Shown here: piece by piece, positions 3,801 to 10,241 of the stretch | How the letters are laid out: each line of letters starts with the position of its first letter | Position numbering within the stretch: position 1 is the stretch's first letter | NCBI GenBank assembly: GCA_014728295.1 | Contig: WJLW01000070.1 | Location: 62,001-126,000 of the forward strand | Length of the DNA: 64,000 nucleotides | Source of the DNA: Chitinivibrionales bacterium | GTDB lineage: Bacteria > Fibrobacterota > Chitinivibrionia > Chitinivibrionales > WJKA01 | Direction: 5' to 3' | Position numbers and translations under genes: made by a program | Notes under the pieces: generated by a model | Told to the model about the DNA's origin: nothing | The model's database searches: none | Seen by the model: only the letters and a program-made list of their open reading frames with translations

Positions 3801-6632
3801 TCAGTTCAGGCAGGTTTTCAAATAGCGCCCGGTAATCGATTTTTTGTCGAGCGCCAACTCTTCGGGGGCGCCGGTTGCGATGATGTCGCCGCCTTTATCG
3901 CCTCCCTCCGGCCCGATGTCGATGATATGGTCGGCACATTTGATCACATCCAGGTTATGCTCGATGATAATTACGGTGTTGCCCATGTCAACCAACTCCT
4001 GAAGCACGCTCATAAGCATTTTAATATCTTCGAAGTGCAGGCCGGTGGTTGGTTCGTCAAGTATGTACAGCGTTTTACCGGTAGATTTTTTGGAGAGTTC
4101 GGAAGCGAGTTTGATGCGCTGTGCCTCGCCGCCCGAAAGCGTAGTTGCCTGTTGACCCAGATGAATATACCCCAGGCCGACACGGGAGAGCACGGTCAAT
4201 TTCGACTTTATAGCGGGCAGCTTGCCAAAAAAGCCTGCTGCTTCGTCAACGGTCATATCGAGAATGTCGGCTATTGTTTTGCCTTTGAAGGTGATCTCCA
4301 GGGTTTCGCGATTATAGCGTTTACCGTGACATGACTCACATTCAACATAGACATCCGGCAGAAAGTGCATTTCTATTTTAATGACGCCGTCTCCCTGACA
4401 GGTTTCACACCGGCCTCCCTTGACATTGAAGCTGAATCTGCCGGATTTATAGCCGCGCATCCGACTTTCCGGCAGCATGGCAAACAACGAGCGGACGGGA
4501 CCAAAAATTTTAGTATAGGTAGCGGGATTTGAGCGCGGCGTCCGGCCGATGGGTGACTGATCGATATTGATAACTTTGTCGATATGCCGGATACCGGTAA
4601 CGGATTCATGTTCGAGAACAGGCTGCCTTGAGCGGTGTAGATGCTTTGCGAGCGCCGGATACAGCGTCTGGTTTATCAAACTGCTTTTGCCCGAGCCTGA
4701 AACCCCCGTAACGCAGGTCAGTACGCCGAGCGGAATCGAAGCAGTGATATTTTTGAGGTTGTGTCCGCGGGCGCCTTTTATGGTAAGGTGCAGACCGCTC
4801 GATTTTCGTCTTGTTTTTGGCAGCGCAATGGTTTTGTCGCCTTTGATGTAGGCGCCGGTAAGCGAATCTTTATGTGAAATTACGTCTTTGGGGGGACCAC
4901 AGGCCACAATTTTGCCGCCGTGCACCCCGGCGCCGGGGCCAATATCGATGAGCCAGTCGGCCGCCTCCATAGTTTCTCGATCATGTTCAATGACGATGAC
5001 GGTATTGCCTAAATCACGCAATGAAAAAAGCGTTTGCAAAAGTCGTGCATTGTCACGGGCGTGCAGGCCGATACTGGGCTCGTCGAGAATATAGAGTACT
5101 CCCGAAAGACGGGAACCGATCTGAGTGGCAAGACGAATGCGCTGGCTCTCGCCCCCGGAGAGGGTAGATGCCGTCCGATCCAGTGAAAGGTAGGCCAGAC
5201 CAACATTAATCAAAAAATCGAGTCGCTGTTTGATTTCGATGATTATCTGCCTGGCAATTACCTGCTGGGTGGGGCTCAGCTCGACCGATTCGAAAAAATA
5301 TCTGGCATGTTCAATTGCCGCGCAGGTGAGATCGGCAATATTTTTGTCGCCAATTTTTATGGCCAGCGCTTCCTGCCGAAAGCGGCTTCCTTTACAAAGC
5401 GGGCATTGGCGCTGCGACATAAATCCCTCAATCCACTTGCGAATCTCATCCGACGTCGTCTCACGGTAGCGGCGCAGCAGGTTGGGAATCACGCCCTCAA
5501 ACGTGCGTTTGAAGCTGCCTGAACCTTCCCGGGACTGGGACTGCCATTGCATGGTAATTTTTTCGGCGCCCGACCCATGCAAGAGTATCTTTTTGTGCCG
5601 GGCGGAAATCGCTTTGTATGCTTTGTCGAGCGGGATTTTAAAATGCCTGCATACCGACAACATGATCTGATGATTCCAGCTTCCCATTGTCGCTGCACCG
5701 TTCCAGGGGACTATGGCGCCCTTTTCAAGCGTCTGTGAAGGATCGGGAACAACCAGCCCGGGATCTATTTCCAGCAGATAGCCCAGGCCATGACACGTGC
5801 TGCATGCTCCGAAGGGGCTGTTGAATGAGAACAGGCGAGGCGAAATTTCATCGTAGCTAATGTCGCAATCGGGACAGGTAAGCAGCTCGGAATAGACGCG
5901 CTCTTCCCCGTCGACAATGTCAATTATCACCGTGCCGTTTACCGAGAGTTTCAGTGCGGTTTCAAGCGAATCGGTGAGACGTGCCTTTGAGCGGGCCGTG
6001 ACGAGCAGTCTGTCAATTATGACTTCTATCGTGTGCTTGCGGTTCTTGATGAGTTCTATCTCCTCATCCAGCTCGAAAAGCTGCCCGTCGATACGTGCCC
6101 GCACAAAACCGTCCTTTTGGAGCTTGCGCAGGAGCTCCTTGTATTCACCTTTGCGCCCTGTTATTACGGGGGCCAGTATTTGAAAGCGAGTTTTTTCGGA
6201 CAATGCAAGGATGCTGTCGGTAATTTCCTGCACCGTTTGTCTGCTGATTGGTTTTCCGCACACATAGCAATATGGATCGCCGATGCGGGCAAAGAGCAGA
6301 CGCAAATAGTCGTGAATTTCGGTTATCGTCCCGACGGTTGAGCGGGGGTTGTGTCCGGTGGTTTTTTGCTCGATGCAAATGGCCGGTGAAAGGCCTTCAA
6401 TAGAATCGACGTCCGGCTTCTCCATCAAGCCCAGAAACTGCCGGGCATAGGCCGACAACGACTCGACATAACGACGTTGGCCCTCGGAATAAAGCGTGTC
6501 AATCGCCAGGGAAGACTTGCCGGATCCCGACAGCCCGGTGATGACCGTGAGGGTGTTGCGCGGAATGGTGACGTCGATATTTTTTAAATTGTGCTCGCGT
6601 GCCCCGCTGATAACGATATCTTTTGATTGCAT
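3801..6632 (-). CDS. uvrA: Excinuclease ABC subunit A
   Basis: ISGAREHNLKNIDVTIPRNTLTVITGLSGSGKSSLAIDTLYSEGQRRYVESLSAYARQFLGLMEKPDVDSIEGLSPAICIEQKTTGHNPRSTVGT is diagnostic of UvrA. Zn-finger CxxC motifs and two ABC signatures (LSGGESQRI, LSGGEAQRI). Start set at MQSKDIV rather than the longest ORF start. Confidence 0.97.
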   Translation of the reverse strand: MQSKDIVISGAREHNLKNIDVTIPRNTLTVITGLSGSGKSSLAIDTLYSEGQRRYVESLSAYARQFLGLMEKPDVDSIEGLSPAICIEQKTTGHNPRSTVGTITEIHDYLRLLFARIGDPYCYVCGKPISRQTVQEITDSILALSEKTRFQILAPVITGRKGEYKELLRKLQKDGFVRARIDGQLFELDEEIELIKNRKHTIEVIIDRLLVTARSKARLTDSLETALKLSVNGTVIIDIVDGEERVYSELLTCPDCDISYDEISPRLFSFNSPFGACSTCHGLGYLLEIDPGLVVPDPSQTLEKGAIVPWNGAATMGSWNHQIMLSVCRHFKIPLDKAYKAISARHKKILLHGSGAEKITMQWQSQSREGSGSFKRTFEGVIPNLLRRYRETTSDEIRKWIEGFMSQRQCPLCKGSRFRQEALAIKIGDKNIADLTCAAIEHARYFFESVELSPTQQVIARQIIIEIKQRLDFLINVGLAYLSLDRTASTLSGGESQRIRLATQIGSRLSGVLYILDEPSIGLHARDNARLLQTLFSLRDLGNTVIVIEHDRETMEAADWLIDIGPGAGVHGGKIVACGPPKDVISHKDSLTGAYIKGDKTIALPKTRRKSSGLHLTIKGARGHNLKNITASIPLGVLTCVTGVSGSGKSSLINQTLYPALAKHLHRSRQPVLEHESVTGIRHIDKVINIDQSPIGRTPRSNPATYTKIFGPVRSLFAMLPESRMRGYKSGRFSFNVKGGRCETCQGDGVIKIEMHFLPDVYVECESCHGKRYNRETLEITFKGKTIADILDMTVDEAAGFFGKLPAIKSKLTVLSRVGLGYIHLGQQATTLSGGEAQRIKLASELSKKSTGKTLYILDEPTTGLHFEDIKMLMSVLQELVDMGNTVIIIEHNLDVIKCADHIIDIGPEGGDKGGDIIATGAPEELALDKKSITGRYLKTCLN

Positions 6633-6661: not shown

Positions 6662-7087
6662 TCAGGAACTTTGAGAAGCGAAATAGATCTCTTTGTGATA
6701 ATATACCCATGCATCCCTAACACCCGCGGCCAGCTTCAGCCTGTTAAACGGCTTGAAATAGAACGGGCAACGCATAATCTTTTTTATTTTGACCAGGGTA
6801 TGTTTGGGATTATAGCCAAATCCGGTCATTAAGGCAACCTCTGAAGGCAGGTTTTTGTCCCGGATTGTACTGACAAATTCGTAGCCATCCATTTCAGGCA
6901 TGGCTATATCGGTCAGTACCAGAAAAAAAGAGGTTCCGGTAAGATTTTCCAGAGCAACATGCACCGACGGCGCCGGGGTCACCGTCCAGCCGAGGGACTC
7001 CAGAAAAATTCGCAGAAAATCCAGAACATCCTCTTCATCATCCACGATGAGGATGTTATTGTTTACCACTTTTCTTAAGCAATTCAT
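6662..7087 (-). CDS. Stand-alone receiver-domain response regulator
   Basis: ILIVDDEEDVLDFLRIFLESLGWTV...VLTDIAMPEMDGYEFVSTIR...FYFKPFN: canonical receiver residues, no output domain. Confidence 0.88.
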   Translation of the reverse strand: MNCLRKVVNNNILIVDDEEDVLDFLRIFLESLGWTVTPAPSVHVALENLTGTSFFLVLTDIAMPEMDGYEFVSTIRDKNLPSEVALMTGFGYNPKHTLVKIKKIMRCPFYFKPFNRLKLAAGVRDAWVYYHKEIYFASQSS

Positions 7088-7439
7088 CGGTTTTGTCCAA
7101 AAGCTCCTGTTTGCCGAAGGGCTTGGTTATATATGCATCAGCCTTCATTACGTGTAATCCGACCATCTCGTCAAATCCTGCCGATTTCGCTGTTAATATG
7201 GCTATGGGAATTCCGGCAAACTGCTCATCTTCCCGTATGATTTTAAATACTTCCCATCCGTCCAGTTTCGGCATGAGTAAGTCGAGCAAAATGGCATCGG
7301 GATTAAATTCGCGTATCGTTTTAACGGCCGATTCGGGGTCAAGTATGGTTTTCACTTCATAATCCTGGGTTTCAAGTACTAGCTTGACCAGATCGGCGAT
7401 ATCTTTTTCGTCCTCTACAACCAGAATGCGCTTTTTCAT
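7056..7439 (-). CDS. Stand-alone receiver-domain response regulator
   Basis: MKKRILVVEDEKDIADLVKLVLETQDYEVKTI...ILLDLLMPKLDGWEVFKIIRE...AYITKPFGKQELLDKTDELL: canonical receiver. Start set at MKKRIL. Confidence 0.92.
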   Translation of the reverse strand: MKKRILVVEDEKDIADLVKLVLETQDYEVKTILDPESAVKTIREFNPDAILLDLLMPKLDGWEVFKIIREDEQFAGIPIAILTAKSAGFDEMVGLHVMKADAYITKPFGKQELLDKTDELLKKSGKQ

Positions 7440-7452
7440 ATGCTTCTGCCTT

Positions 7453-7755
7453 TTAGCGTTTGAGATATTCGGTAAAAAGCCATTTCCAATAGCGTAAGCA
7501 GGTGAACAGGGCCGCCCAGCCGGCAATACATTTGATGATTATTAGGGCGATGGCGGCTGTCAGGTGTGTCTGGTACGCTATTGAAATAATTTCCGTGATC
7601 ATTACCAATAAAATCAAGGCAACCGAAATAAACAGAATCCGATAATACGGTGGTATTTTCAAAGCCTCGCCGAGTCGCCTGCTTAGATATGAAAGCAACA
7701 GCAGCAAAACGATGGCCGAACCGTCAAATACCAGGTAAACAAGCTCCGCAGACAT
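7453..7755 (-). CDS. Small membrane protein, about 3 TM helices
   Basis: 100 aa, highly hydrophobic segments (SAIVLLLLLSYL; ILFISVALILLVMITEIISIAY; AAIALIIIKCIAGWAALFTCL). 1 bp from the upstream gene. Confidence 0.7.
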   Translation of the reverse strand: MSAELVYLVFDGSAIVLLLLLSYLSRRLGEALKIPPYYRILFISVALILLVMITEIISIAYQTHLTAAIALIIIKCIAGWAALFTCLRYWKWLFTEYLKR

Positions 7756-7756
7756 G

Positions 7757-8065
7757 CTATTTGCGTACCCGTTTCATTGTTGCAAACAGTTGTAATGAGC
7801 TGACAACGGATGCGATGGAAGTCGAAATTGCCAGCGTTGCCTTTATGGCGATAATGGCAGGATATGCTTCAATAATAAAGGTGCTGACCATGGTAAGAAT
7901 AGATAAAAATATGGCCACCAGGAAAACGATCCGTGGAGTACGCTCATGAAACTTATCCTGATAAAACGAAGATATGAGATAACATACCAGATTAAGGCAG
8001 GCAATTGAAAAAATGTAGCCTGCAAGAAAGATCTTGGCAATCACATCAAGTTGATCCGCAATCAT
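7757..8065 (-). CDS. Small membrane protein, about 3 TM helices
   Basis: 102 aa with hydrophobic helices (IFLAGYIFSIACLNLVCYLI; IVFLVAIFLSILTMVSTFII; TLAISTSIASVVSSLQLF). Start overlaps the stop of the KaiC-like gene (ATGA). Confidence 0.7.
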   Translation of the reverse strand: MIADQLDVIAKIFLAGYIFSIACLNLVCYLISSFYQDKFHERTPRIVFLVAIFLSILTMVSTFIIEAYPAIIAIKATLAISTSIASVVSSLQLFATMKRVRK

Positions 8066-8835
8066 TTTTTCTTGCCGAAAACGTTGACAAATGCATCTTG
8101 GGGCGTATAATGGGTGATGCCACTCATAATTCCTTCACGACCGCTGAATTTGGAAACTACTTCTATGCCTTTGGAGGCGATGTTAAAGCCGCGGATATCC
8201 TTTTGGTGATCGCTGCCGCGCATCTTCAGGATGATCATGGCTTTCTGGATTTCACTGTCAACTTCTACATAGCGTAGCAGTATATAGGTATCAACGATAA
8301 AGGGAATTTTTGAAGTTACTTGACTGACCTGCCCCATGAGACTGTCGTTTTCTCGCAGGAGAATGCTGGTCACCTGTTCCCGCTTCAGCGAATTGATGAA
8401 TTTGCGCTCTATTTCACGCAATTCGAACTCATCTATCGAGAGTGATTCGAAATGAGTCATGCTGTCAATCGCAACCCGCTTGATGCCCATTTCTTCGATA
8501 ACCGACACAAATTCGCCGTCCAGCTTTTCAAGTTCGGCCAGCGTAGTCTGAGGGTCGGAGAAAATGATTCTGAGCTGGCCTTCGTCCTCGAGCTTCTTAA
8601 GGTCCCAGCCAAATTGCATCGCATCATGATAGTACTGTTGAGGGAATTCTTCAAATGAGATGATCAATCCCGGCTCACCGAATTTGACGATACCGTTGTA
8701 AACAAATTGTATGGCAAGTGTTGTTTTTCCGGTTCCCGGTGCGCCTTCGATCAAATTCGCCGATCCCGGCAGCAGGCCGCCTTTGAACATCGCGTCGAGA
8801 TCTTTTATGCCAAATGAAACTCGTTGATCACTCAT
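8062..8835 (-). CDS. KaiC-like RecA-superfamily ATPase (single domain)
   Basis: FGIKDLDAMFKGGLLPGSANLIEGAPGTGKTTLAIQFVYNGIVKFGEPGLIISFEEFPQQYY: KaiC-type N-terminus with Walker A GAPGTGKTT and the EE dyad (SFEEFP). About 257 aa, so one KaiC domain only. Confidence 0.88.
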   Translation of the reverse strand: MSDQRVSFGIKDLDAMFKGGLLPGSANLIEGAPGTGKTTLAIQFVYNGIVKFGEPGLIISFEEFPQQYYHDAMQFGWDLKKLEDEGQLRIIFSDPQTTLAELEKLDGEFVSVIEEMGIKRVAIDSMTHFESLSIDEFELREIERKFINSLKREQVTSILLRENDSLMGQVSQVTSKIPFIVDTYILLRYVEVDSEIQKAMIILKMRGSDHQKDIRGFNIASKGIEVVSKFSGREGIMSGITHYTPQDAFVNVFGKKK

Positions 8836-8862: not shown

Positions 8863-9789
8863 TTATGTCAACAGATGCGAAATAATCGCTTTTTGAACAT
8901 GCAGCCTGTTTTCCGCCTCGTCCAGTGCCATGGAAAAGTCTGCATCCAGCACTTCACTGGTTATTTCTTCTCCACGATGAGCAGGCAGACAGTGCGAAAC
9001 CAATACATCTCGAGATGCACGCGCAAGCAATTGCGAGTTAACCTGATAGCCGGTAAAGGCTTTTTTGCGTTTTTCGGTTTCTTTTTCCTGCCCCATGCTG
9101 GCCCACACATCGGTATATATCACCTCGGCCGAGGCGATCGCAGAGTTTAAATCCGGCTGCATGGCTATCGCCGCGCCGGTATTGCTGCAGGCATGCTGTA
9201 TGCGCTGAAAAACAGGAGCCGGTACTTCGTATCCGGGGGGGCACGCAAGCGTAAAGCGGTATCCAAGCTTTGCACAAATTGACATGAGCGAAATACACAC
9301 ATTGTTGCCGTCGCCGATGAATAAGATATTAGCTTTGCTGTCGGCGCCGATTCTTTCATGCAATGTCTGCATGAATGCCAGTGCCTGGCAGGGATGAAAT
9401 GTATCGGTCAGGGCGTTTATCACCGGTATTGAACTATGAGCCGCAAGCTGCTCAATCGTGGTGTGGCTGAAGGTGCGCGCTACGATAAGGTGTACCCACC
9501 GTTCAAGGTTGCGGGCGACATCTTCAACGCTTTCCCGCTTACCCAATTGTACCATCGTGGATTCGAGATTGACGGGATGGCCGCCGAGTTCATGTATTCC
9601 CGTTTCGAACGTAATGCGCGTGCGCAGGGACGGCTTCTCGAAAATGAGCACCCCCGTCCGGTCCCGCAATGGTTTTGGGTCGCCGGTTAGTCTGGCTGCT
9701 TTGAGCCGGGCAGCCTGCTGCAGAACCATGAGGATCTCGTCCCCCTCATAATCCAGCAAGGTAAGCAAATTGCGATTTGATGGACCCAT
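8863..9789 (-). CDS. argF: Ornithine carbamoyltransferase
   Basis: FEKPSLRTRITFETGIHELGGHPVNL (cf. STRTR/SLRTR carbamoyl-phosphate motif), NALTDTFHPCQALAF (HPCQ), YTDVWASMGQE, HCLPAHRGEE. Confidence 0.93.
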   Translation of the reverse strand: MGPSNRNLLTLLDYEGDEILMVLQQAARLKAARLTGDPKPLRDRTGVLIFEKPSLRTRITFETGIHELGGHPVNLESTMVQLGKRESVEDVARNLERWVHLIVARTFSHTTIEQLAAHSSIPVINALTDTFHPCQALAFMQTLHERIGADSKANILFIGDGNNVCISLMSICAKLGYRFTLACPPGYEVPAPVFQRIQHACSNTGAAIAMQPDLNSAIASAEVIYTDVWASMGQEKETEKRKKAFTGYQVNSQLLARASRDVLVSHCLPAHRGEEITSEVLDADFSMALDEAENRLHVQKAIISHLLT

Positions 9790-10241
9790 GGAGTGCTGCT
9801 TATTGAATTTTTGAGATTGGCACTGCGCTGTGATAAAAGTAAAACATGAAATATATATCTTTTGCTGTCGGCATATACAAGAGAATGCATAGAATAAAAC
9901 TAATTTCATCCCGAGTTGAAGGGAACTGTCGGCGAGGTGAAACGCGCTTACGCACCAAAGGGCACGGCAAAACCCGCGAAGTTAATTGCCGGTGCAGGCT
10001 TTTGCGGCTGCAGTTTGCAGATAAAAAGTGGCACGATCACATTGCCTTCTACTATATTTAGCGTATATAGGTGTATGGCGGGATGTTGGGAACCAAGCAG
10101 TGATGAGGTTGAGCCTAATACAATAGTTATATATATATATGCTAAGGACAAAGCTGGTCTGCTGCATGTTATTAAAGCGCTTTAATAGCCGGGGGAGCGC
10201 AGCTTAGCTTTTCAATTACCTTCAAAATGGGAGGCTTTCAC

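Follow-up and report, generated by a model that had tools for sequence, protein, structure and literature searches.

What system is encoded by a run of five tightly packed genes that combines a KaiC-like ATPase, two very small membrane proteins and two stand-alone receivers between two housekeeping genes? The window analysed here, a 64,000-nucleotide stretch of Chitinivibrionales DNA, carries these genes on the minus strand from 8835 to 6662, overlapping or abutting, between argF (8863..9909, minus) upstream and uvrA (3801..6632, minus) downstream, both of which we treat as context and not as proposed components. Checked against the open reading frames, the arrangement described by an earlier, sequence-only reading of this DNA is confirmed throughout: the KaiC stop overlaps the start of the first membrane gene, TM1 (ATGA), a gap of 1 bp separates TM1 from the second, TM2, the end of the first receiver gene, REC1, is overlapped by that of the second, REC2, and uvrA starts (6632) 29 bp beyond REC2. 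The gap between TM2 and REC1 is 13 bp. Only 27 bp lie between the end of argF and KaiC, a spacing at which argF, and also uvrA, may belong to the transcription unit.

The first gene (8062..8835, minus strand) encodes a single-domain KaiC-family ATPase of 257 aa. The protein scores 183.2 bits against PF06745 (cut-off 26.6), its closest solved chains are KaiC proteins, and it keeps the Walker A and B motifs, the catalytic glutamates (an EE pair) and KMRGS; its named relatives appear in the records as Fibrobacteres or Chitinispirillia, which makes an origin of the window in Fibrobacterota very probable. The phosphosites of the clock protein, S431 and T432, align with P and F. Among KaiCs linked to TM1 and TM2, 46 of 53 could be read at these sites; none has threonine at the second, and some have serine at the first. 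Such a loss is consistent with regulation by a route that does not involve autophosphorylation of KaiC. PADLOC gave weak generic matches to ATPases and receivers, little ground for supposing a role in defence.

Within Fibrobacterota, HMM searches place TM1 and TM2 directly downstream of KaiC in all 38 loci. KaiC is the best-conserved member of the module, with orthologs at 64-82% across the majority of same-order genomes and at 58-60% in a second lineage of the phylum (f11/g33); at E 1e-20 the KaiC search returned no match in any f8/g24 genome among those listed. The same HMM searches find REC1 (7056..7439, minus; 127 aa) in 36 of the 38 loci, being missing from two, whereas a second receiver, here REC2 (6662..7087, minus), is found in 26. 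REC2 has at most 141 aa, its start being uncertain because a GTG a few codons inside is also possible; both receivers match PF00072 (83 and 62 bits, respectively). Given this difference in frequency, the conserved unit as judged from gene content is KaiC-TM1-TM2 plus REC1, and REC2 is an addition, accessory to a subset of loci. Of the two receivers first proposed as partners, only REC1 has therefore kept its place as a regular one. The 3' neighbour of the locus varies across the phylum and may be uvrA (in most same-order genomes only), a ligase-like gene of 426-429 aa, or others. On the other side, both of the Fibrobacterota lineages examined (the window and L069-L105) have argF immediately before KaiC, a linkage that is old within the phylum and has no evident functional reason.

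TM1 (7757..8065, minus; 102 aa) and TM2 (7453..7755, minus; 100 aa) are 3-TM proteins of two unnamed families, each defined by its alignment. Neither has a match above the curated cut-off in Pfam or above cut-off in NCBIfam, and a Pfam scan of all members of both families gave scattered weak matches, none of them consistent. AlphaFold2 predicts confident three-helix models (pLDDT 93.7 for TM1 and 92.6 for TM2) for which Foldseek found no match in the PDB at E<=0.001. Narrow profiles of the two families show no homology to one another; only profiles widened to three phyla do so (hhalign probability 90.8, E 1.2e-6). Because these wide profiles detect homology, TM1 and TM2 are probably ancient, distant paralogs, as their similar layout had already suggested. 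Conserved in TM2 are a motif of the type LSxRLGxxxKxxPYYR, which follows helix 1, and YWxWL close to the C-terminus; TM1 conserves IAxFY and has a C-terminus that is mostly basic. The net charge of loop 1 is positive in 48/48 TM2 rows and 44/45 TM1 rows, and that of the C-terminus in most; this charge distribution makes an N-out/C-in topology likely, in which case the conserved motifs of both proteins would face the cytosol.

Outside the phylum, where contigs were scanned with the KaiC alignment and the neighbourhoods then annotated, the KaiC-TM1-TM2 trio also occurs in Chloroflexota and in Methanoperedens archaea, and thus in three phyla and two domains of life. Among 199 genomes of one Chloroflexota class (taken around a single member of that phylum), TM2 is present in single copy in 43 and directly behind KaiC in 36 of these. 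Seen from the other side, TM2 accompanies 36 of the 38 best KaiCs of that class; of the two that lack it, one is at the end of a contig and the other is a paralog without the tail described below. The proposal that the 3-TM genes are linked to KaiC beyond this locus, to be checked by co-occurrence of their HMM homologs, is borne out by these counts together with the Fibrobacterota ones, and KaiC-TM1-TM2 is well supported, at the level of gene order, as a conserved unit and module in Fibrobacterota, Chloroflexota and Methanoperedens.

Receivers and kinases are distributed less evenly. In Methanoperedens, a double KaiC is followed by TM1, TM2 and then a receiver (L190), a receiver and a histidine kinase (L189), or, in a further layout, a phosphonate-binding-like protein, a histidine kinase and a receiver; the linked kinases are of the HisKA/HATPase type. 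When three Methanoperedens-type genomes were searched with REC1, the top two matches were precisely the KaiC-linked receivers (48-51% at E 1e-32 to 1e-36); many orders of magnitude behind them, the next-best receiver reached E 3e-20 or weaker. REC1 conserves the acidic pair, the phospho-Asp and the Lys, and by these matches it is a dedicated partner in Fibrobacterota and Methanoperedens. In the two Chloroflexota genomes checked, the receivers closest to REC1 are not linked to KaiC, and no second receiver was seen in the REC2 position in Chloroflexota loci. Further along, many Chloroflexota loci have a GAF-rich histidine kinase, or else an adenosine deaminase, which recurs beside KaiC-TM1-TM2 where no histidine kinase follows (L119, L124, L144 and other Chloroflexota). 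No histidine kinase is linked to the cluster in the Fibrobacterota loci, so the remark that the cluster has none is true of the window and its phylum; it does not extend to Methanoperedens and Chloroflexota, where relatives possess the KaiC-linked kinase missing here. Judged from gene neighbourhoods, the lack of a kinase is local to Fibrobacterota and does not characterise the system as a whole.

How might the ATPase and the membrane proteins be connected? The last ~17 residues of KaiC form a tail, ITHYTPQDAFVNVFGKKK in the window (8065..8118, minus), with the pattern F-x-x-x-F-(G)-basic, for example F-x-x-x-F-(G)KK, which we propose as a peptide that docks on a membrane platform of TM1 and TM2. 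Among 71 KaiCs with TM1/TM2 neighbours, the pattern was found in 69 by regular expression and in one (L189) by eye; L191, in which the expression cut inside the first domain, was left out, giving 70/70 evaluated for a pattern that was defined post hoc, after the tails had been inspected. Seventeen bacterial paralogs without TM genes were read as well, some of them near contig ends, and none has the pattern. When a KaiC tree is built without the tail columns, the bacterial KaiCs linked to TM genes fall into a single group, within which long-branched Fibrobacterota paralogs lacking both TM genes and tail are nested, a placement that is unsure with the quick method used. We count the co-occurrence of tail and TM genes as support for platform docking.

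The strongest competing explanation, which we nevertheless consider unlikely, is that the tail is an amphipathic membrane-targeting helix that binds lipid directly, TM1 and TM2 being a small channel, transporter or sensor in their own right that KaiC regulates. The tail is indeed short, hydrophobic and basic (DAFVNVFGKKK), and presumably resembles membrane-targeting ends such as those of MinD or FtsA. Tail-like ends also occur in most of the soil-archaeal KaiCs that were read, usually next to 3-TM or 6-TM genes in which no homology to TM1 or TM2 was detected; in two (L157, L169) no membrane gene is adjacent, which counts against docking on a platform. Lipid binding alone, however, would not demand that the tail track the TM genes, as it does among bacterial paralogs. 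The soil-archaeal loci (L155, L158-L165, L167 and L172, mostly Bathyarchaeota and Nitrososphaerales) place a winged-helix-KaiC pair beside 3-TM or 5-6-TM proteins.

A second alternative, to which we assign a lower probability still, holds that the main partners of TM1 and TM2, which might for instance form a membrane sensor, are the two-component proteins or the winged-helix ones, with KaiC a dispensable modulator. Most Chloroflexota loci open with a winged-helix-like protein of ~125 aa, which matches HVO_A0114 in Pfam only weakly and has 37 similar proteins, archaea and Armatimonadota among them. The seven TM2 loci of the Chloroflexota class that do not lie behind KaiC comprise two contig breaks (G126, G206), L197, L195 (with neither KaiC nor the winged-helix gene upstream of TM2) and three, L193, L194 and L196, in which the winged-helix gene is followed directly by TM1-TM2 with no KaiC between. 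These three suggest that TM1 and TM2 may have a KaiC-independent role. Also in favour of this alternative, TM2 is immediately followed by a histidine kinase in many of the Chloroflexota loci. Against this, KaiC is the best-conserved member and is present in every Fibrobacterota locus and in 36 of the 43 TM2 loci of the Chloroflexota class. A different association of the same winged-helix gene occurs in Armatimonadota, where it lies upstream of a fusion between a double KaiC and a solute-binding-protein domain (SBP_bac_1/8; L166:5281-7926 and L170:6001-8616), an odd and apparently cytosolic architecture with no obvious N-terminal export signal. Chance adjacency inside a housekeeping argF-uvrA transcription unit, for which the flanking genes and small gaps might speak, is refuted by cross-phylum conservation and in our estimate has next to no probability, since KaiC-TM1-TM2 recurs without argF or uvrA in Chloroflexota and Methanoperedens, whose loci do not have argF upstream of KaiC.

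Our preferred reading, which we hold to be slightly the better side of even, is that a membrane platform of TM1 and TM2 holds a KaiC ring by its tail, and that the ring is coupled to phosphorylation by a two-component system. The single-domain KaiC would assemble as a hexameric RecA-like ring, TM1 and TM2 would build a heteromeric platform, and the C-terminal tail would dock on that platform or on the adjoining membrane. REC1 would be phosphorylated by a histidine kinase, whose gene is linked to the others in Methanoperedens and in many Chloroflexota but unlinked in the window; it may then bind the KaiC ring and alter the nucleotide state or assembly of the ring. The output would depend on lineage; in Chloroflexota the linked winged-helix-like protein is a likely effector. 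More tentatively, and with somewhat less than even confidence, we suggest that these loci represent a previously undescribed signalling machine common to Bacteria and Archaea. In such a machine a KaiC-type ring would sit, by way of a dedicated tail, on a two-subunit platform of 3-TM half-proteins, and a histidine kinase and a receiver, both dedicated to it, would act as its switch. To our knowledge, the partners of most KaiC-like ATPases outside cyanobacteria are not known. The present finding supplies a compact partner set for a non-clock KaiC, consisting of two orphan membrane families, which thereby gain a context, and one receiver type; with the tail as a candidate for the likely docking site, the role of non-clock KaiC proteins becomes directly testable.

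Comparison with known systems sets this module apart from several better-known relatives. Beside one tail-bearing soil-archaeal KaiC (L161), a 6-TM protein of ~300 aa matches the MASE3 sensor domain just under the cut-off (29.6 vs 31 bits). The analogy with TM1 and TM2 is one of position only: hhalign to this MASE3-like 6-TM family gives a probability of 1% or less, and MASE3 is not among the families listed for TM1 and TM2 members (for TM1, 25 of 35 families). ArlH (FlaH) is, like the window KaiC, a single-domain KaiC-like protein, and works in the membrane machine of the archaellum (PMC8978795); identity with ArlH was rejected on its NCBIfam score (53 bits vs a cut-off of 215), and the window cluster has no ArlI or ArlJ gene, its partners being 3-TM proteins and receivers. 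Cyanobacterial KaiC shares the RecA-like fold, Walker motifs and KMRGS, and KaiC chains are the best solved matches; it has two domains to the one found here and S431/T432 in place of P/F, and with neither kaiA nor kaiB in the cluster or among the ORFs around it we reject a KaiABC clock. A survey of clock systems (PMC5520375) uses neither 'Fibrobacter' nor 'membrane' in its main text. We found no paper on the TM1/TM2 families or the tail, nor any on KaiC with Fibrobacter or Methanoperedens, in a search covering few subscription journals. The suggestion that the system is undescribed thus holds for these components, but not for the general idea, because KaiC-like ATPases have been proposed as signal-transduction hubs in archaea (Makarova, Galperin, Koonin 2017, mBio 8:e01959-17, cited in PMC5847659). 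The module, known here from its genes, shows the conserved linkage to signal-transduction and membrane proteins that characterises such hubs, which, as they are presented in that citation, likewise join KaiC-family ATPases to receivers, kinases, winged-helix and membrane proteins. The window differs from the hubs so presented in that its KaiC is bacterial and single-domain, is encoded with members of two specific 3-TM families that are paralogous and with a dedicated receiver, and ends in a conserved tail.
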